This document shows, in pieces, positions 391-10,451 of a stretch of DNA of 24,862 bases (positions are counted from its first letter, which is position 1; the number at the start of each line of letters is the position of its first letter). The stretch is taken from IMG/VR virus record IMGVR_UViG_3300009488_000074, positions 1 through 24,862 of that record; one strand, 5' to 3'. The notes under the pieces were generated by a model that worked only from the letters and a program-made list of their open reading frames with translations, did no database searches and was not told the DNA's origin. This DNA comes from a virus. The position numbers and the translations under genes were made by a program.

Positions 391-822
391 ATGCCCGAAG
401 CATCCCGAGCTACCAAAGACCCGAGCGCCGCCGAAGAGGGCGCGAAAGAGCGCAAGCAGCGAGGCTCCCCCAACTTCCCGTTGGACGGCAAGATCACTGT
501 GCGCGTGGACTCCAACCCCAAGCGCGTCGGCTCCAAGGCCCACGCCCGTTTCGCTCTGTACAAGACGGGCGATACCGTGGAACAGTTCATGAAGAAGGGC
601 GGCACCTACAGCACCCTGAAGTGGGACACGGAGCACGGTTTCGTTGCCATCAACGAGACGCCGGAACAGCGCAAGGCATGGGAAGCCGACCAGAAGGCCA
701 AGGCGGATGCCAAGGCCGCGAAGGCCAAGGCCACTGCCGAAAAGAAGGCTGCTGCCGACGCCAAGAAGAAAGCCGCCGCCGAGGACAAAAAGACCGAAGG
801 CGGCACTCGCGCCAGCGCGTAA
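391..822 (+). CDS. Small basic phage protein with Ala/Lys-rich tail, unknown function
   Basis: This 143-residue protein has two parts. Residues ~25-92 form a compact, probably folded domain (key runs KITVRVDSNPKRVGSKAH and FALYKTGDTVEQFM, then LKWDTEHGFVAI) of a type I recall from other phages and prophages as hypothetical. Residues ~93-143 are a low-complexity, highly charged helix of Ala and Lys, resembling histone H1 or HU tails, which could bind nucleic acid (inference). Codons are strongly G/C-ending, unlike the downstream plus-strand genes and similar to the capsid gene, which suggests high expression. It sits between its own promoter-like element and a strong terminator hairpin, so it is probably monocistronic. 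The start at 391 follows AAAGGAGAG at good spacing. Function is not known to me. Confidence 0.8.
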   Translation: MPEASRATKDPSAAEEGAKERKQRGSPNFPLDGKITVRVDSNPKRVGSKAHARFALYKTGDTVEQFMKKGGTYSTLKWDTEHGFVAINETPEQRKAWEADQKAKADAKAAKAKATAEKKAAADAKKKAAAEDKKTEGGTRASA

Positions 823-889: not shown

Positions 890-1672
890 ATGCGAATATT
901 TATTCCGACCTATGGGCGTTCGGGACAGCAGACTACGTTTGATGTCTTTGATGGCTACCTGCAATCTAAGTACAAGCCGACTCTAATCGTACAAGCACGT
1001 GAGTCACACCTGTATTCCCAGTACCCTCACATCGCACTGCCTGCTGGCATTGAAACTATATCGCCCACGCGCCAGTGGATTCTTGATATGTTCAACGGTA
1101 AGCTGCTCATGCTTGATGATGACCTGTTATTCTACAGGCGTAGGGAAGATGACCGCACCAAGTTTCGCAAGCTAACCAATGAAGATGTACTATTCATGTT
1201 CACTTGTTTAGAAGACATGTTGAACAACTTCGTGCATGTGGGCATGATGGGGCGCGAGGGCGGGAACCGCTACACGGAAGAGACTAAGGAAGTGGGGCGT
1301 ATGATTCGAGTGCTGGGATACCAGACGGAGGTACTCAAGCACCACAACCTGAAGTTTACGGATATTCCGCTTATGCAGGACCACCACATGAATCTCAGCT
1401 TACTGAAGCTCGGGTACCCCAACTGTATACTCTCAGAATTTGTCAACAATCAAAAAGGTGGTAGTGACGCCCCCGGTGGGTGCAGTCACTTCCGTACACC
1501 TGAGCTATTGGCTGACGCAGCCCGCCGACTGGAGGAACTGCACCGGCCATTCGTTAAGGCTGTGGAAAAAGAAACCAAGACTGCCTGGGGCGGGGGCACC
1601 CGCATTGACACTCGCATACAGTGGAAGAAAGCCTATGAACACGGCAGAGCAGCGAATAGCATACTGGATTAA
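890..1672 (+). CDS. TET-associated-type glycosyltransferase (TAGT-like), DNA base glycosylation
   Basis: A 260-residue GT-A-like glycosyltransferase that resembles the TET/JBP-associated glycosyltransferase family found in phages with hypermodified bases. The N-terminus MRIFIPTYGRSGQQTT is the nucleotide-sugar binding strand/loop. TRQW (60-63) precedes the core strand LMLDDDLLFYRRR, in which D76-D78 form the metal-binding DxD-type motif. The segment GMMGREGGNR (118-127) and the QDHHMNL segment (163-169, probable catalytic-acid region) are family-like, as is GGCSHFRT near 196-203. The family is thought to add sugar to hydroxymethylated pyrimidines in DNA. The start follows GAGGTGACCT. The 3' end overlaps the next gene by 38 bases, so the two are probably translated together. 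The family call is fairly secure; the acceptor base (5-hmU or 5-hmC) is inferred from the neighbours, which point to 5-hmU. Confidence 0.75.
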   Translation: MRIFIPTYGRSGQQTTFDVFDGYLQSKYKPTLIVQARESHLYSQYPHIALPAGIETISPTRQWILDMFNGKLLMLDDDLLFYRRREDDRTKFRKLTNEDVLFMFTCLEDMLNNFVHVGMMGREGGNRYTEETKEVGRMIRVLGYQTEVLKHHNLKFTDIPLMQDHHMNLSLLKLGYPNCILSEFVNNQKGGSDAPGGCSHFRTPELLADAARRLEELHRPFVKAVEKETKTAWGGGTRIDTRIQWKKAYEHGRAANSILD

Positions 1673-2483
1673 TCACCGGTGGAATATACTGGTTAAGCGG
1701 GAGCGTGGGGACCCTAGACCATGGACAACGGACCGTATACTACAGGACTTTCGGTTCTGTAACGTACACAGGGAAAACGACAAGGTCACCAAGTGGATAG
1801 CAGAACATTGGCGTAACCCCAATGTGAAACATGAAAACCTTATCCCCGCTCTGGTGCTGGCGCGGATGTTTAACTTGCCTGACACACTTCAGGCGCTGGG
1901 GTTCCCACACTTTTGGGATGTTGAAGATATGGCCTTTGGTTTGAAAGACCGTCGGGCCTGTGGTATTAAGATATTCAACGGTGCGTACCTCATCACTACC
2001 TGTGGTGTGAAGATGGATAAGATAGACTATGTATTCCGGGTGGCTGATGATACACGCAATTCAATGGTCAGCATACAACCAGAAAATACTCTGGAACACT
2101 GGCACCGACAGCTAACTCAGGTCAAGGGGCTAGGTAGTTTCCTGGCAGCACAGGTGATAGCTGACCTTAAGAACACACCTGGACACCCGCTACAGGAGGC
2201 TCCAGACCGGCTCACGTGGTGCGCCCCTGGCCCTGGTAGCCTGCGCGGGCTTGCGCGGCTCGAGAACGGGCGTAGGCCGTCTAAGAAGGCATTCTTAAGG
2301 GTGGCGCAGGCTGCACGCCAGCGGGTTGTCCCCCTGCTGGACCCCATGCCTGAAATAGACATGCAGGACTTTCAAAACTGCCTGTGTGAGTTTGACAAAT
2401 GGGAGCGTACATACTTTGGAGAATCAAAACCCAAGCAGCGATACGACGGAAGGCACCCTGACAGTACGAACCCAATACCATGA
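1635..2483 (+). CDS. HhH-fold thymine hypermodification protein (5-hmdU DNA kinase helical / aGPT-pyrophosphorylase-like)
   Basis: This 282-residue protein looks like the helical, DNA-glycosylase-fold proteins of thymine hypermodification pathways (aGPT-pyrophosphorylase / 5-hmdU DNA kinase helical domain group). The FRFCNVHRENDKVT segment (39-52) matches the family signature with F, N-V and R-E-x-D. VKGLGSFLAAQVIADL (163-178) is a helix-hairpin-helix followed by the Asp position (D177). APGPGSLRGL (197-206) matches the conserved GPGS-RG loop. I see no Walker A (GxxxxGKT/S) motif, so the P-loop kinase partner of known 5-hmdU kinases is not fused here. Members act on 5-hydroxymethyluracil in DNA, as kinase accessory or by transferring amino groups at the activated base. 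The ATG at 1635 lies inside the glycosyltransferase gene, after GGAAGAAA. Exact chemistry is unknown. Confidence 0.7.
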   Translation: MNTAEQRIAYWINHRWNILVKRERGDPRPWTTDRILQDFRFCNVHRENDKVTKWIAEHWRNPNVKHENLIPALVLARMFNLPDTLQALGFPHFWDVEDMAFGLKDRRACGIKIFNGAYLITTCGVKMDKIDYVFRVADDTRNSMVSIQPENTLEHWHRQLTQVKGLGSFLAAQVIADLKNTPGHPLQEAPDRLTWCAPGPGSLRGLARLENGRRPSKKAFLRVAQAARQRVVPLLDPMPEIDMQDFQNCLCEFDKWERTYFGESKPKQRYDGRHPDSTNPIP

Positions 2484-2493
2484 CGGGAGGGTA

Positions 2494-2631
2494 ATGGCTG
2501 TCCTGAATATACCAGAAGGACCACCCACCTGGATACAGATCTTTGGCTGCCTGGAAGACGCTGAAGTATTTTGTGAGGACCACAACCTGGAGTTCATAGA
2601 TAATGTCAGCACACCAGATCAGCAGGAATAA
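2494..2631 (+). CDS. Small hypothetical protein (45 aa)
   Basis: A short ORF sits between the hypermodification protein and the thymidylate synthase homologue. I chose ATG 2494 because GGGAGGG lies just upstream with good spacing, and because this start avoids overlap with the previous gene. The same frame is open further upstream to a GTG at 2386, giving 81 aa, but that start has no ribosome site and would overlap the previous gene by 98 bases. The protein is acidic and has no motif I recognise (MAVLNIPEGPPTWIQIFG..., ending in EDAEVFCEDHNLEFI). Its end overlaps the next gene by 29 bases. Confidence 0.5.
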   Translation: MAVLNIPEGPPTWIQIFGCLEDAEVFCEDHNLEFIDNVSTPDQQE

Positions 2632-3577
2632 CGTCAACGAGAATTACCCCGATGGGCTGTGGTGGCTCAAGACTGCCGGCGAGATGCAGGACAGTCGTAA
2701 TGGTAGAGTCATTGTAGCTCCTGGCCCTGTGCTCAATGTCTACCACCGCCCACGTGAACGTGTGTTATTCTCTGAGGTACGTGACGCCAACCCGTACTTT
2801 CACTTTTTCGAATCACTATGGATGCTGGCTGGCAGAAATGACCTAGCCTATGTGAAGCACCTGCTTCCCCGTATGGCAGAATACAGCGATGACGGTGTAG
2901 TGCTTCAAGGTTCGTACGGGTACCGCTGGCGACGTAATTGGGAAGAGGACCAGCTGTTTACTATCATAGACCACCTAGAAAAGGACCCTGAAAGTAGGCG
3001 GGCTGTCATACAGATGTGGGACCCTAGTGACTTACGTGCTCCTGGGAAGGACGTTCCCTGTAATACTCAGCTCTTTATAAGCGTTCGAGGGGACTTGTTA
3101 GACATGACTGTCACATGCCGCAGCAACGACGCAATCTGGGGATGCTATGGGGCCAATGTCGTACACTTCAGTTACCTACAAGAGTTCTTGGCCTGCGCGT
3201 TGAAAAAGATGGTCGGTAAGCTGTATCAATTCAGCAATAACTTCCACGTGTACCCTGAAATGCCCAGGTTTGAAAAACTGTACGCCCACCCCTCATCTAC
3301 GAATTACTATTTAGGGGAGGCCGTGTCGCCCGGCCCCCTCTTATTCCAAGGTGACTTTCAAAATTTTCTAATGGAACTAGAGGACTGGCTGGACACCCCC
3401 ACAAGCTCAAGTAGCTATCCCTTTTTATCTGGGGTAGCATACCCTATGTGGCTAAGTTTCACTAACCACAAGCAGGGCGAAAGGGAAGGCGCCCTTGAAT
3501 GGGCAGACCAAGTAGACGCTCCGGACTGGCGTCTGGCCTGCAAAGCCTGGTTGGAGCGTAGATATGCCAGCAAATGA
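2603..3577 (+). CDS. thyA-like: Thymidylate synthase-family enzyme, probable dUMP hydroxymethylase or thymidylate synthase
   Basis: A 324-residue protein of the thymidylate synthase / pyrimidine hydroxymethylase family, which adds a one-carbon unit from methylene-tetrahydrofolate to C5 of dUMP or dCMP. Visible landmarks are: E70 in FFESLWMLAGRND (catalytic Glu equivalent of E. coli E58), GSYGYRWRR (103-111), the phosphate-binding pair R132-R133, the nucleophile C153 in the VPCNTQLF segment, the R173-S-N-D176 motif, N185 after GCYGA (equivalent of N177, which selects uracil over cytosine), and the SNNFHVY segment near 236. Asn rather than Asp at the base-recognition site points to dUMP. The neighbouring genes make hydroxymethylation to 5-hmdUMP more likely than plain methylation, but sequence alone does not decide this. 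Start ATG 2603 overlaps the previous ORF and has a weak ribosome site. Confidence 0.85.
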   Translation: MSAHQISRNNVNENYPDGLWWLKTAGEMQDSRNGRVIVAPGPVLNVYHRPRERVLFSEVRDANPYFHFFESLWMLAGRNDLAYVKHLLPRMAEYSDDGVVLQGSYGYRWRRNWEEDQLFTIIDHLEKDPESRRAVIQMWDPSDLRAPGKDVPCNTQLFISVRGDLLDMTVTCRSNDAIWGCYGANVVHFSYLQEFLACALKKMVGKLYQFSNNFHVYPEMPRFEKLYAHPSSTNYYLGEAVSPGPLLFQGDFQNFLMELEDWLDTPTSSSSYPFLSGVAYPMWLSFTNHKQGEREGALEWADQVDAPDWRLACKAWLERRYASK

Positions 3578-3845
3578 CGAACAGGTAGGTGGCACTCATT
3601 ATAAAGGCCAGCCCATTGAACATTGGGATTTTGCCTTGATGCATGACATGCCGTACATGGAGGCACAAATATTCAAGTACGTGCTGAGATGGAAACAGAA
3701 GAATGGCATCTCTGACCTACGGAAAGCACAGCATTTTCTGCGCAAGCTGATTGAGTGGAACACTCCCACAATTGACGCAGCCAACAGGGAAATGAACCCT
3801 GACAGCGGGGAGCCGCGAGGCCAGGGTTATGTCAACCAAGACTGA
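3564..3845 (+). CDS. DUF3310-type protein (phage nucleotide-metabolism associated)
   Basis: A 93-residue protein of the DUF3310 type. The family signature is clear: GGTHYKGQPIEHWDF at the N-terminus, then IFKYVLRWKQKNGISDLRKAQ with the KY-x-x-R and KxG-x-x-DL-x-KA pattern, then a final helix (FLRKLIEW). Such proteins are common in phage replication/nucleotide modules and are sometimes labelled nucleotide kinase-like, but I know of no firm activity. The gene overlaps the thymidylate synthase homologue by 14 bases, with GGAG just upstream of the ATG, so coupled translation is likely. Its position supports a role in nucleotide supply for the modified genome (inference). Confidence 0.8.
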   Translation: MPANDEQVGGTHYKGQPIEHWDFALMHDMPYMEAQIFKYVLRWKQKNGISDLRKAQHFLRKLIEWNTPTIDAANREMNPDSGEPRGQGYVNQD

Positions 3846-4253: not shown

Positions 4254-4490
4254 ATGAAGATGTACCAGCAAGAACACCTGCACCGCGTCATGGATGTAGC
4301 GGAGTGGATAAATAAGAACTCTTGGTGGGCCGTCATTATAGGTGGCGTTCAAGTTATAGTGGGTGCCATCTTAGAAGACCAAGCTGTCACCTGGGCGGGG
4401 GGAGCTATAGTCACAATAGGTACCCTCATGACTTTTGCTGTAAGTGGGACACTCATGTACGTGCGCTGGAGGAAAAGAATGTGGAAGTAA
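4254..4490 (+). CDS. Small two-TM membrane protein, unknown function
   Basis: A 78-residue protein with two likely transmembrane helices (about residues 22-40, NSWWAVIIGGVQVIVGAI, and 47-71, with AGGAIVTIGTLMTFAVSGTLMY) and a basic C-terminus (RWRKRMWK). The short polar N-terminus carries MKMYQQEHLHRVMD. Start ATG 4254 is chosen because the upstream in-frame sequence lies within RNA hairpins and is not protein-like; ATG 4260 is an alternative. No good ribosome site is visible for either. It could be a holin-like or superinfection-related membrane protein, but the recognisable holin is elsewhere (5183-5662). Its end overlaps the 2OG oxygenase start by 10 bases. Confidence 0.6.
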   Translation: MKMYQQEHLHRVMDVAEWINKNSWWAVIIGGVQVIVGAILEDQAVTWAGGAIVTIGTLMTFAVSGTLMYVRWRKRMWK

Positions 4491-5050
4491 AACCTGGCAG
4501 TTTCATCTACGAGTTTCCCCAAACGCTGAGTCGACCTTTTTGCGAGGGGGCCATATCTAAATTTGAGCTTGACCCCAATAAAGAAGTCGGCAGGTTTGGG
4601 GAGGGCACCCACGACCCCAACTTCAAAGCATCCACTGACCTTACTGATATCTCTAACCGTGCGGAATGGCAAGTAGAGGGTCAAGCATTTCTTGACTCAG
4701 TTACTGAAATCTTTGCATGGTTCCAAGAATTTGTGGGCAATGAGGACCAGTTCGACTACCCTGGCTGTAGAATACAGCGAACCGAACCTGGGCAGAAATA
4801 TGAGTACCATGTGGACACCGGCCCGGTGCCCGGAATAATCAACAGGATGCTGGCACTTATCTGGTACCTTAACGATGTAGAGGAGGGTGGGGAAACAGAG
4901 TTTTTACATCAAGGAATTAAAGTGCGACCGGAGGCTGGCAAGCTAGTGGTCTTCCCACCGTACTGGACTCACCCCCACCGTGGACTAACCCCTGTGTCTG
5001 GGACAAAGTACATCTGCACCACCTGGCTGCGGGTGAAAATGTGGTGCTAA
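4481..5050 (+). CDS. 2-oxoglutarate/Fe(II)-dependent dioxygenase (prolyl-4-hydroxylase-like)
   Basis: This 189-residue protein has the double-stranded beta-helix dioxygenase signature. H110-V-D112 in KYEYHVDTG is the HxD iron motif, LALIWYLNDVEEGGETEF (124-141) is the typical P4H core with the WYLND and GGETEF runs, H166 in THPHRG is the distal iron ligand, and K176, ten residues later, is the expected 2-oxoglutarate salt bridge. Members hydroxylate proteins or small molecules using O2 and 2-oxoglutarate; the sequence looks like the P4Hc group and not TET/JBP. GTG 4481 is chosen because GGAGG lies eight bases upstream, and it overlaps the membrane protein gene. As the last plus-strand gene it may belong to the modification operon, but the substrate is unknown. 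Confidence 0.85.
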   Translation: MEVKPGSFIYEFPQTLSRPFCEGAISKFELDPNKEVGRFGEGTHDPNFKASTDLTDISNRAEWQVEGQAFLDSVTEIFAWFQEFVGNEDQFDYPGCRIQRTEPGQKYEYHVDTGPVPGIINRMLALIWYLNDVEEGGETEFLHQGIKVRPEAGKLVVFPPYWTHPHRGLTPVSGTKYICTTWLRVKMWC

Positions 5051-6869: not shown

Positions 6870-7183
6870 TTGTTGAATACTCCTAGCTCCTTCTCGTACT
6901 CTTCCATAAAATCCTCCAACTCTTTTTCACGCTCCGCTGGTGACTTAAAGTTGGGGCTCTCTGGATTCTGTACGCTCAGGCGCATGTCCTCTGGGTTTTC
7001 ACGAAGCAGCCTAGCCTGCCATTCCTGACGTTGCCTGGCAATTTCTCGTTCTTGTTGCCAAGGATATCCTGAATATGCAAACAGCTTTGTCCCTTGAAAC
7101 TCCGGGGCAGTAGGGTCGGCGGGGTCGCCCGCCTCGTCAACCAGCATCCCTCCTGGGTTCCAACGGTCGTACCAGTCAGTCAT
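6866..7183 (-). CDS. Small hypothetical virion or lysis-region protein
   Basis: A 105-residue acidic protein. The start at 7183 shares one base with the stop of the tail fibre gene (TGATG) and has GGAGGCGG-like Shine-Dalgarno sequence upstream. A 7-residue longer in-frame start (7204) is possible but less likely. It begins MTDWYDRWNPGGMLV and has a Pro/Asp-rich middle and a Glu-rich helical C-terminus (AEREKELEDFMEEYEKELG) that could form a coiled coil. I recognise no family. It sits between the tail fibre and the lysis genes. Confidence 0.6.
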   Translation of the reverse strand: MTDWYDRWNPGGMLVDEAGDPADPTAPEFQGTKLFAYSGYPWQQEREIARQRQEWQARLLRENPEDMRLSVQNPESPNFKSPAEREKELEDFMEEYEKELGVFNK

Positions 7184-8607
7184 CACACCACCGCCTTGAT
7201 ACACAGAACCACGTAGACGTTGTCTGGGCGAGTTTCATTGCCCATACCTGTGCCTGCCGTGGTCTGTTTGATTTGGAAACTAACTCGCAGCGGATTGGGG
7301 TCAAACCCCTTGAGGTTCACCACACCGTTGGGAGCTTCGTAGCTGTGTTGATGGGGGCCGACCCCTTCAAGCTGTGTCGTACCGGGAGCATCCCCTGTGG
7401 TGCCGTCCCCTCGGTCACCACGGCTGGCAGCGTCAGGGTCCTGGCCTCTGCCCAAGTCCTGCCCACGTAGGAACTCACCCCGTAGGTCAGGCACATTAAA
7501 GTTAGGTCCCGCTCCACCGTAGGCATAGCCGAGGTAAGCAAAGAGCTCAGGGAAGTTGGCCGTCAGGTAGCTGGTGCCGTCACAGATTAACCACTCTGTG
7601 CCAAGGTTGGGAGGGTTGAGTGGGAAGCCTGCTATCTGCCCGACAGGCTGGTTGCCGGTGGATGTCGGGGTGTTACCACCTGACCCTCCACCACCAGGCC
7701 CGCCCACGAAGTTACCTTCAAAGTCAATGGCGGACATGACAGCGCCGGTTTCATCCCGCCACTCAGCAAGGTTGTCCGTCTGCCCAGCGCTCAGGCGTTT
7801 GGTGAAGCTCTTGTTGTAGCCTGCTCCCAGATTACTGGTTTCGAACGCGCCACCAGGCAGATTGCCTCCCCCTGTCTGTTCAAGTAAGCTCAAACGGGCA
7901 GTGTCGGCATCGGCCTGCCCGCCGAAGGGGTAGTGGGCCACATGGTTCGTACCGACAGCGGCGCTGATAGTGGCCCCCAGCCTTACTTCACCACCGCTGT
8001 TTTCATTCGTGGCCTTTACGAGCAAAGCCTCGGGAATGCTGTTCTCTAAGCGAACATGGTTGGCTTGGTCTGAATTGATAAGCCACACAGGGCGACCATC
8101 ACCCTGAACATAGGCTATGATACTACCATCAAACAACTCGTAGTCTACGAGATGTTCATCTTGTTCTGGGTCGTTGCCTTGGATGCGGAGCTGCACTTCA
8201 TCAGCCACACCATCAATGAATACTGGTGCGGTGACCAGACCACCGGCACCGTTGATAATAACATCGCCTTCAATAGTGAGGTTATCATCAATAATGACGC
8301 CGACCAACTCGCTGACCAGTATCTTTTGCACACCCTTGACCACCAGCCACCAGCGGCCATCACTTTCACGGTACAGACCACTGCCTGTCTCACCGATAAA
8401 CCGCAGACCCGGATTAGCCTCGGAACCGTCAATGATACCGAGGGCGGCCCTCATGGCTCCCTTGCCGTCGCGACTTAAGGAGTCTTCTACCTCCGCACCT
8501 AGGTCTTCCATGGTGGGGTTAGCCCAGCCATCGGACTCGATTAGAGTGTCCGTTATTACCGGATTCCCTGCGGGCAGAGTATACTGACCTGCTGCGTTAC
8601 GTGGCAT
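7183..8607 (-). CDS. Tail fibre protein with tail-collar domain
   Basis: A 474-residue tail fibre. Its N-terminus (MPRNAAGQYTLPAGNPVITD, then SDGWANPTMEDLGAEVEDSL) is the virion-attachment start seen on many podovirus fibres. The middle (about 100-300) is a beta-rich shaft. A Gly-rich linker (303-311, GPGGGGSGG) leads to a phage tail collar domain (about 321-385), with GTEWLICDGTSYL, FAYLGYAYGG and FNVPDLRGEFLRG. The end, GNETRPDNVYVVLCIKA (456-472), is the family's standard finish. Such proteins bind the host surface. It overlaps the downstream gene by one base and abuts the upstream gene. Confidence 0.85.
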   Translation of the reverse strand: MPRNAAGQYTLPAGNPVITDTLIESDGWANPTMEDLGAEVEDSLSRDGKGAMRAALGIIDGSEANPGLRFIGETGSGLYRESDGRWWLVVKGVQKILVSELVGVIIDDNLTIEGDVIINGAGGLVTAPVFIDGVADEVQLRIQGNDPEQDEHLVDYELFDGSIIAYVQGDGRPVWLINSDQANHVRLENSIPEALLVKATNENSGGEVRLGATISAAVGTNHVAHYPFGGQADADTARLSLLEQTGGGNLPGGAFETSNLGAGYNKSFTKRLSAGQTDNLAEWRDETGAVMSAIDFEGNFVGGPGGGGSGGNTPTSTGNQPVGQIAGFPLNPPNLGTEWLICDGTSYLTANFPELFAYLGYAYGGAGPNFNVPDLRGEFLRGQDLGRGQDPDAASRGDRGDGTTGDAPGTTQLEGVGPHQHSYEAPNGVVNLKGFDPNPLRVSFQIKQTTAGTGMGNETRPDNVYVVLCIKAVV

Positions 8608-10451
8608 TATTCTTCCCCACTATCTAGAAGTGTTGCGGACGCCGTGCCTATCTTTGGCTCCACAATTGAGTCCATGATCTGCTTGGCTCGCTCTTGCATG
8701 GGGTTTAGCCCGAATAGCATTCGTGCGCCCCCACGCCTGGACCCCACCATGCTCGTGCCCAGAGCAGGCAGAGCCATGAGGGGAGCGTATACCATGCTGC
8801 CAGCGCCGAGACCGACGCCACCCAGAGCACGGAACCATCTTGGGTCTTGGCCTGGCCCCATCGTTTGAAACGCTGGGTCTATAATGTCCTGGCCCCCACC
8901 ATATCCACGAATACGGTTGCGCTGACTGGTGCGTTTGCGGACTGCCCTTTCCAGATTACGCACAGGAATTTCTGGCTCGTCCCTGGCACGTGTGAACCCC
9001 CGCGCATCCTCCAGCAACATCTTGGCCCCGTAGGCTTTATTCACCGCCCGCAGTTGATTGGCTCCCTCCGTGGTAAGGCGTGATTCAAACAGGCCGTTGA
9101 GGTGCGTGTCGATTTGAGAGTATATTTCCTTTATACCCTGAGCATTATCCGACAGAGTTTCACGCTGGCTTAGGTCACGTATTTCACTGCGGATATGGTT
9201 TTGAAATCTTTTCAACTGCTGTGCAGTCATACCACTGACTTGGTATTCCTCCAGCAAGTCGTACATTTTCTTTTCAAAGCTGTCCCTAACACCCTTGTCC
9301 ACCATCCGCCCCTTATTAGCGAATGCGTCAATTACTCCTATGTCAAGGTCATCGTACGTAAACTTACCCTTGATTGGCGCAATGGCATCGTCGTACGCAC
9401 CATTGAATATAGTGTCCATCTCCTTAAAGTACGTGTCCGTACCAGGCTGGCTCACAGGTGGCGCATGTCCAGGGGGGACAGCCCTTCTGGCGAGCGCTGC
9501 GGAAACTTCATTTTCTGCACGTTCGCGCCCACCCTTGAGGCCAGGCAGGATGTCCTGCAAGTTTTCCTCAATATTCTTTACCAGTTTGGCGAAGGGTCGT
9601 AGCCCACTGGTTTCCACACCCTGCCCTAGAGTAGTCTGCACACCTTCGTCTGCTAGAATTTCAGCAGCCTCGTTACGCTCAAACATTCCAGTCAAGGTTT
9701 TGCGGCCTGCCTGAACACCTGCGCTCAGGGCTACAGGGAGGGCGGCACCAAGGACAGTCGTGGCACCACGCCCGAGTGTTTGACCTTCTAGCACAGGCTG
9801 CGCGAAACCTTCTGCACCACCGACTGCACCCGCAGCAGTCATCTTTGATGCCCACCGGGGTAGAGCAGAGGTAAGCTTCATAGCTGCTTGTTCTGCTGCA
9901 CCGAGGGGGACGGCAAACGCGCCGACATTGCCGGCGATATCACCAGTTGTACCTGCGTTGATAAAGGCTTCGCCTTCATCCATGCCCGCGCCTGCGCTAA
10001 GATCACGCCACGCCTGTACGTCAGCCTCATCTCCAGGGTCAAGGCCGACGGTAAGTTGCTTGATGCCGTGACCTATATCAGCTACGCCTTTACCGATGAG
10101 GGCATCAGCTCGTTGGTTGTAGTCCATGCCACGCTCACGCATGATTCTATTTATAGTTTCGGGCATGGCACGGCGTCCCACAGAGATGGGACCACCTGCC
10201 TGCGAGCGCTGATATTCAGCAACCTTAGCCAGACGCGCAGCCTCTTCAGGAGTTTTACTGCCTATGTCCAGCCCTGCCGTGGGGGCCACCGCTGCCTGAG
10301 GTGCCTGAGCGGCCACAGGAACGCCCGTAACGCCTTCGACTGCGCCAGGGCTAGGGGTGCCTGCCCCCGGTGCTGCGGACCGTCTAGCAGCCTCTCGAAC
10401 AAGCCTGCGGCGATTCGCTTCGGCAATTAACTTTTCAGCTTCAGAGGCCAT
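8607..10451 (-). CDS. Large virion protein, probable internal/DNA-ejection protein
   Basis: A 614-residue protein from the ATG at 10451 (an in-frame TTG at 10478 would add nine residues and overlap the upstream gene by 38 bases). The N-terminal third is Ala/Pro-rich and helical. Gly/Ala-rich, possibly membrane-interacting segments lie near the first third (GNVGAFAVPLGAAEQAAMK and TAAGAVGGAEGF) and near the C-terminus (LGGVGLGAGSMVYAPLMALPALG). The middle is charged and helical (DDAIAPIKGKF, RFQNHIRSEIRDLSQ). Helical segments with amphipathic Gly-rich stretches next to tail genes are typical of podovirus internal proteins that enter the cell with the DNA. I recognise no specific family; the role is inferred from position and composition. 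Confidence 0.6.
   Translation of the reverse strand: MASEAEKLIAEANRRRLVREAARRSAAPGAGTPSPGAVEGVTGVPVAAQAPQAAVAPTAGLDIGSKTPEEAARLAKVAEYQRSQAGGPISVGRRAMPETINRIMRERGMDYNQRADALIGKGVADIGHGIKQLTVGLDPGDEADVQAWRDLSAGAGMDEGEAFINAGTTGDIAGNVGAFAVPLGAAEQAAMKLTSALPRWASKMTAAGAVGGAEGFAQPVLEGQTLGRGATTVLGAALPVALSAGVQAGRKTLTGMFERNEAAEILADEGVQTTLGQGVETSGLRPFAKLVKNIEENLQDILPGLKGGRERAENEVSAALARRAVPPGHAPPVSQPGTDTYFKEMDTIFNGAYDDAIAPIKGKFTYDDLDIGVIDAFANKGRMVDKGVRDSFEKKMYDLLEEYQVSGMTAQQLKRFQNHIRSEIRDLSQRETLSDNAQGIKEIYSQIDTHLNGLFESRLTTEGANQLRAVNKAYGAKMLLEDARGFTRARDEPEIPVRNLERAVRKRTSQRNRIRGYGGGQDIIDPAFQTMGPGQDPRWFRALGGVGLGAGSMVYAPLMALPALGTSMVGSRRGGARMLFGLNPMQERAKQIMDSIVEPKIGTASATLLDSGEE

Follow-up and report, generated by a model that had tools for sequence, protein, structure and literature searches.

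What is known of thymine hypermodification in phages comes mainly from M6, ViI and phi W-14, in which a route via a kinase leads to amino-thymines. The virus record IMGVR_UViG_3300009488_000074, a 24.9 kb genome fragment whose 24,862 bases were all analysed and are called the window below, raises the question of which chemistry is used when a glycosyltransferase takes the place of that kinase. On its plus strand it carries a cassette of three genes, encoding TAGT, a glycosyltransferase of the GT-A type (890..1672), the helical protein HMUDK_hel, also called aGPT-Pplase1 and named HEL here (1635..2483), and an enzyme of the thymidylate synthase (TS) family (2603..3577). A first-pass annotation had recognised these genes and proposed that deoxyuridine monophosphate (dUMP) is hydroxymethylated at the nucleotide level, incorporated, then activated and possibly glycosylated in DNA. 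We found the three open reading frames (ORFs) at these coordinates with clear Pfam and PHROG matches to the families proposed. We consider it probable that the cassette serves the glycosylation of 5-hydroxymethyluracil: dUMP would be converted to 5-hydroxymethyl-dUMP (hm-dUMP) and incorporated, and TAGT would transfer a sugar directly to the resulting 5-hydroxymethyldeoxyuridine (5-hmdU) in DNA.

TAGT and the gene content of a complete relative

The first protein of the cassette matches PF20691 (E 2.4e-14; 54.2 bits against a curated cut-off of 27.5) over profile positions 1-204 of 205, and PHROG 842 (E 3.7e-41); its predicted activity is the transfer of a sugar to 5-hydroxymethyluracil in DNA. 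A PDB sequence search with TAGT gave no match. Its AlphaFold2 model (pLDDT 96), submitted to the structure-based search that the first-pass annotation had suggested, matches GT-A enzymes in Foldseek, the top one being TarP, a UDP-GlcNAc glycosyltransferase (E 2.8e-6). The DDD motif already noticed in the sequence, D76-D77-D78, is invariant in 58 TAGT sequences, as are R10, T16, G197 and R202, and D164 is nearly so.

TarP acts on wall teichoic acid and is encoded by prophages of S. aureus, and cell envelopes are the target of many phage glycosyltransferases. This would fit an enzyme with a protein or the host surface as its substrate, encoded by a moron-type gene, with a DNA role limited to HEL and the TS-family enzyme. 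We regard such a division as very improbable, since TAGT steadily adjoins HEL and the TS-family gene, is exchanged for DNA kinase or GT-B-like genes in exactly one slot (see below), and belongs to a family with a DNA role in T2 and T6 (PMC13216743).

In these phages TAGT, a beta-glucosyl-HMC-alpha-glucosyltransferase, puts a second glucose on alpha-glucosyl-hydroxymethylcytosine (alpha-glucosyl-hmC) in DNA, giving gentiobiosyl-hmC (PMC13216743). The window's protein is 27-29% identical to it and keeps the DDD motif and R202/D164. TAGT is thus not solely tied to TET/JBP, as had been assumed at first. In 288 of 753 genomes TAGT occurs without an alpha- or beta-glucosyltransferase, and these solitary TAGTs were proposed as novel transferases (PMC13216743).

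The part of the genome that is missing from the fragment can be read in a complete relative, G001 (IMGVR_UViG_3300024432_000003; 41,516 bases with terminal repeats), because the two match at 98% over the whole length of the window. G001 encodes a terminase, a VapE-like replication protein, a DUF932 protein, a family A DNA polymerase, a PD-(D/E)XK nuclease and an SNF2 helicase. We searched it for kinase and TET genes with Pfam models, our own profiles and a Walker A scan. Neither the HMUDK_HMUD1 kinase (PF18748) nor the amino acid:DNA transferase ADDT (PF18724) was found in G001 by profile search, and the sole plausible Walker A motif lies in the VapE-like replication protein. No second glycosyltransferase was recognised in G001, where TAGT is single. 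The observation that no TET gene is in view extends to G001, in which none was recognised either; a Tet_JBP search of 48 genomes was negative, but it lacked a working positive control, since the control set gave nothing either.

The gene content of G001 contradicts a kinase-type route, in which 5-hmdU in DNA would first be phosphorylated and then decorated or glycosylated, and the activation step of the first-pass annotation is therefore unsupported. HEL is indeed named for the 5-hmdU DNA kinase, and phages of the kinase class share both HEL and the TS-family enzyme. However, neither HMUDK_HMUD1 nor ADDT nor any other P-loop kinase was recognised in G001, kinase and TAGT are mutually exclusive among relatives, and we hold prior phosphorylation to be highly improbable here.

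The TS-family enzyme is a predicted dUMP hydroxymethylase

The third protein matches PF00303 (E 3.5e-19) and PHROG 5131 (E 2e-99). Its top relative in the PDB is MilA, a CMP 5-hydroxymethylase (5b6d, E 2e-22), whereas the best thymidylate synthase reaches only 7e-10. The Asn that had been noticed at the base-selecting site is residue 185; together with the catalytic Cys153, Arg173 and Asp176, it is invariant in 181 TS-family sequences. Asn185 is common to the TAGT and kinase classes, M6-like phages included, and is found in 131/131 enzymes of the TAGT class. MilA carries Asp at this position, and in T4 dCMP hydroxymethylase it is Asp179 that determines the choice of dCMP over dUMP (PMC6400193). 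In addition, Ser174 of the window's enzyme corresponds to Ala176 of MilA, in which the A176S and K133R replacements together move the preference from CMP to dCMP (PMC6400193). The enzyme is 44-46% identical to its counterpart in M6-like phages, and M6 DNA contains bases derived from 5-hmdU (PMC6449724). Because the relation to MilA, Asn185, Ser174 and the M6-like homologues together point in the same direction, we infer from these comparisons that the enzyme probably hydroxymethylates dUMP at the nucleotide level, in agreement with the initial proposal.

The partner of HEL is exchanged among related phages

The first-pass annotation had also called for a survey of gene neighbours outside the window. 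In whole-record searches of 30 HEL-bearing records, we observed TAGT in 16, the kinase in 7 and both in none; HMUDK_HMUD1 (PF18748) was present in 7/32 records, and TAGT in none of those 7. We also collected 80 viral loci seeded on HEL. TAGT is the partner in 48 of them, the kinase in 13, a third glycosyltransferase-like (GT-like) family in 7, a GT-B-like protein in 4 and a nucleoside hydrolase in 1, while 7 have none of these. No locus has two partner types (0/80), and the kinase and TAGT never occur together in them; for TAGT and the kinase, the hypergeometric probability of this exclusion is about 1e-6 before correction for relatedness. ADDT, which acts after the kinase in the pathway, follows the same division, with 8/11 kinase-class genomes against 0/37 others (hypergeometric 4e-7, again before correction for relatedness).

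When 80 loci were seeded on TAGT instead, HEL was found in 77 and the kinase in none. The end of TAGT lies at most 120 nt from HEL in 108 of 132 cases and the genes overlap in 92. The combination of TAGT with proteins of the hydroxymethyluracil type, which had been described as unusual, is thus the norm in this TAGT clade; it also occurs in the cultured phages LuckyBarnes and Zepp, and co-location had been described for pelagiphages (PMC9599517). The gene order of the cassette is not due to chance, as it is repeated across many independent contigs.

These counts are by locus and not independent of one another. Many loci are fragments, and absence from a locus is therefore not absence from the genome, a problem that the whole-record and complete-genome searches reduce. 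The patterns used to find the loci came from an alignment in which the TAGT class is strongly represented, which biases the proportions of the partners and, to a lesser degree, their exclusion.

Relatives whose HEL proteins are at least 70% identical exchange the partner gene alone. TAGT in L087 is replaced by a GT-B-like gene in L092, TAGT in L134 by a GT-B-like gene in L131, and TAGT in L118 and L123 by the kinase in L136. The sole HEL cluster at 70% identity that bears both kinase and TAGT labels consists of separate genomes, i.e. a swap, and two 70 kb phages, G008 (TAGT) and G003 (GT-B-like), differ likewise in their partner. The phylogeny of 115 HEL proteins requires 23 changes of partner label; for the label TAGT, well-supported branches make no fewer than 9 changes unavoidable. 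The same exchange is seen in cultured phages: Zepp carries two TAGT genes, and in Lucky3 a P-loop nucleotide kinase (PF18751, unlike HMUD1) adjoins HEL; both phages were cultured on the same laboratory host, M. foliorum NRRL B-24224. Among the replacing proteins, the GT-B-like protein of L022 has a sub-threshold match to PF00534 (E 0.002), and its homologue in L131 and the GT-B-like protein of L092 have no PF00534 match of their own. The third family had no match in Pfam, PHROG, the PDB or cultured phages, and its designation as GT-like comes from position and motifs alone.

Other genes were observed in or near this slot. In L120 (IMGVR_UViG_3300033405_000001, a 463 kb phage contig) a nucleoside hydrolase-like gene (7078-7977; PF01156, E 2e-12) stands directly before HEL, and neither a glycosyltransferase nor a kinase was detected near the two. 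In L102 (IMGVR_UViG_3300026184_000061) a sulfotransferase-like gene (8825-9604; PF13469, E 2.7e-4, below threshold) separates HEL from the third-family GT-like gene, before the TS-family gene; its product possibly decorates the sugar further. In both L087 and L092 the glycosyltransferase slot is preceded by a 324-aa ORF that lies some 2 kb upstream of HEL; related ORFs were found in 17 cases, and that of L092 looks radical-SAM-like.

HEL is a candidate base-presenting protein

HEL matches PF18723 (E 2.9e-37; 129 bits against a cut-off of 25) and PHROG 2396. A PDB sequence search with it gave no match. Its AlphaFold2 model (pLDDT 95) is all-helical, and its first 12 Foldseek matches are all helix-hairpin-helix (HhH) DNA glycosylases, although weak (E 0.07-2, TM about 0.35). 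Profile comparison by hhalign with HhH-GPD proteins gave 57% (E 1e-4), with the HhH in register and only the HhH region aligned; the controls, TAGT and the third GT-like family, stayed below 1%. The modelled fold would thus resemble, weakly but consistently, base-flipping DNA glycosylases of the HhH-GPD type.

In 63 HEL sequences, R15, N43, R46, D49, T52, R77, A117, Y118, F169, D177 and D191 are invariant, as are G199-P-G201, G205, C251, E252 and K255. These residues are identical in the TAGT and kinase classes, i.e. independent of the partner, while positions 122, 124, 129 and 132 are conserved chiefly in the TAGT class. Asp191, a candidate counterpart of the glycosylases' catalytic Asp, lies 24 residues past the second HhH glycine, against about 20 in EndoIII-type enzymes. 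The M6 kinase favours TG/TC contexts (PMC6449724), and HEL is a candidate reader of such a DNA context.

On our best reading, HEL would bind DNA and present 5-hmdU to the partner enzyme, and the partner would set the chemistry. To a wider version we give slightly less than an even chance: HEL might be a universal hydroxymethyluracil-presenting adaptor, in which a glycosylase-like fold serves as a base-flipping platform on which unrelated writers (P-loop kinases, the GT-A enzyme TAGT, GT-B-like proteins, the third GT-like family and perhaps others) have repeatedly docked, giving a large family of base-J-like phage thymines that includes the window's. Gene fusions of HEL and TAGT were sought as proof of contact, and none was present in the surveyed ORFs.

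HEL homologues also occur in bacterial and archaeal genome contigs (L164-L187; several Patescibacteria, archaea and others), mostly without the TS-family gene, TAGT or the kinase nearby. They possibly have a role outside phage DNA modification.

Proposed pathway and its relation to known systems

From the families, gene order, mutual exclusion, swaps, conserved residues and folds that we computed, we infer a series of reactions, together with the sugar, the base flipping and a contact between HEL and TAGT. The TS-family enzyme would convert dUMP to hm-dUMP, which would be phosphorylated to hm-dUTP by the DUF3310 protein encoded next to it and/or by host kinases. The phage DNA polymerase would then incorporate hm-dUTP, so that thymine is partly replaced. 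Once the DNA is finished, HEL would bind and probably flip out 5-hmdU, whose 5-CH2OH would receive a sugar that TAGT takes from a nucleotide-sugar of the host. The product would be a base-J-like glycosyloxymethyl-uracil, the base being neither phosphorylated nor aminated. HEL is the common part: other phages have, in the partner slot, the 5-hmdU DNA kinase, which leads to amino-thymines, or other glycosyltransferase-like genes.

Several observations weigh against this pathway. Asn185 is also the residue of ordinary thymidylate synthase, so that the choice between hydroxymethylase and methylase rests on family similarity, and the likeness of HEL to HhH-GPD proteins is statistically weak (Foldseek E of 0.07 or more, TM about 0.35). 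The complete phage genome MW202897 has TAGT, the hydroxymethylase, HD and DUF3310 genes without a detectable HEL, which is therefore not required in every case. A few genomes have several kb between HEL and the glycosyltransferase gene (TAGT in G008, the GT-B-like gene in G003). Finally, TAGT of T2 and T6 targets a sugar already present on hmC and not the hydroxymethyl group directly (PMC13216743).

The match of Asn185 to thymidylate synthase, taken with an HhH-GPD-like HEL whose invariant Asp191 is close to the position of the glycosylases' catalytic Asp, could indicate that the phage has unmodified DNA, an ordinary thymidylate synthase and, in HEL, a functional DNA glycosylase or a protein of repair type. 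This seems very unlikely to us, since the closest PDB relative of the TS-family enzyme is a hydroxymethylase, its close homologues are found in M6-like phages, M6 DNA having 5-hmdU-derived bases (PMC6449724), and the cassette includes a DNA-type glycosyltransferase. The T2/T6 precedent would suggest that the substrate of TAGT is glycosylated hmC or some other sugar to be extended: a homologue yields gentiobiosyl-hmC (PMC13216743), and the T-even TAGT gene adjoins that of dCMP hydroxymethylase, just as TAGT and hydroxymethylase genes adjoin in the window. However, in T2 and T6 the base is cytosine and the second glucose follows the first one added by the alpha-glucosyltransferase, whereas the window has HEL, a uracil-type hydroxymethylase with Asn and not Asp at the selecting site, as in the whole TAGT class, and no second glycosyltransferase recognised in G001. 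We consider this alternative unlikely, and direct transfer to 5-hmdU is the reading that we retain.

Compared with the pathway of Pseudomonas phage M6 and Salmonella phage ViI (dUMP hydroxymethylase, 5-hmdU DNA kinase with HMUDK_hel, and ADDT), the window has the same hydroxymethylase (44-46% identity), the same HEL with its invariant residues in common, and a similar surrounding gene order; Yuavirus relatives such as M6 carry this HEL and TS-family enzyme with the kinase. In the window TAGT replaces the kinase, ADDT was not found, and we predict a sugar-conjugated base instead of an amino-thymine. This product would be like base J of kinetoplastids (JBP1/2 and JGT), in which uracil of the DNA bears a sugar at its 5-CH2OH; base J, however, arises by oxidation of thymine in DNA, whereas the window's hydroxymethyluracil is predicted to be made at the nucleotide level, and the organisms are unrelated. 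Among cultured phages, Brevibacterium phage LuckyBarnes and Microbacterium phage Zepp carry the TS-family gene, TAGT and HMUDK_hel as in this type of cassette, and the HMUD1 kinase was not detected in LuckyBarnes (whole genome) or Zepp (an 8.5 kb stretch). They differ from the window in having two TAGT copies, those of LuckyBarnes being 28-31% identical to the window's and the Zepp pair standing after the TS-family gene.

Co-location of these genes in HTVC023P-type pelagiphages was noted previously, and they were reported as thymidine hypermodification genes (PMC9599517); the parts of that report covered here do not state the exclusion, the swapping or a glycosyl-hydroxymethyluracil model. A 2019 paper described glucosylated 5-hmdU as unreported in phages, and we found no later report of it in the literature searched, which covered the central papers in part. 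Within that coverage, the gene families and their co-location in pelagiphages were already known, and the pattern of exclusion and swaps and the reading of HEL as an adaptor appear to be new. If true, a glycosylation branch with shared hydroxymethylase and HEL would explain many solitary TAGTs and predict a base-J-like base in phages. It would also offer a handle on the role of HMUDK_hel, because HEL is retained when its catalytic partner changes, and predict whether defences such as Type IV enzymes and DNA glycosylases would act on these phages or not.

Neighbouring genes

TAGT and HEL overlap by 38 bp, a small ORF (2386..2631, plus strand, start uncertain) bridges HEL and the TS-family gene, and the latter overlaps the DUF3310 gene by 14 bp; these overlaps suggest translational coupling. 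Across the loci surveyed, 55 ORFs are related to the small one, which occurs in 18/48 TAGT-class HEL-seeded loci. Upstream of TAGT, a context gene (391..822, plus strand) encodes a basic protein of 143 aa, with related ORFs in 32/48 TAGT-class loci and 1/13 kinase-class loci. The DUF3310 gene (3564..3845, plus strand; PF11753, E 1.4e-6; PHROG 236 'nucleotide kinase', E 6e-17) is found in 46/48 TAGT-class loci. Its product resembles part of phage nucleotide kinases, and from this resemblance it is possibly an hm-dUMP kinase or an accessory to one.

An HD-domain gene of the 5'-deoxynucleotidase-like type commonly lies 3' of the TS-family gene (71 ORFs; e.g. L092, 9804-10346), although neither the window nor G001 has one; its product may deplete dTTP. 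A 2OG-Fe(II) oxygenase gene is present in the window at about 4490-5050 (PF13640, PHROG 61; non-TET type). As a substitute for TET it was rejected, since it is of the PF13640 type and occurs in only 3/48 TAGT cassette loci. Judging from its structural genes, which encode portal, major head, tail and collar-fibre proteins, the window gives the impression of belonging to a short-tailed phage. In G008, a helicase-like ORF on the minus strand (G008:C1:61160-63508) carries an intein-like insertion, being 782 aa long against 510 aa in G003.

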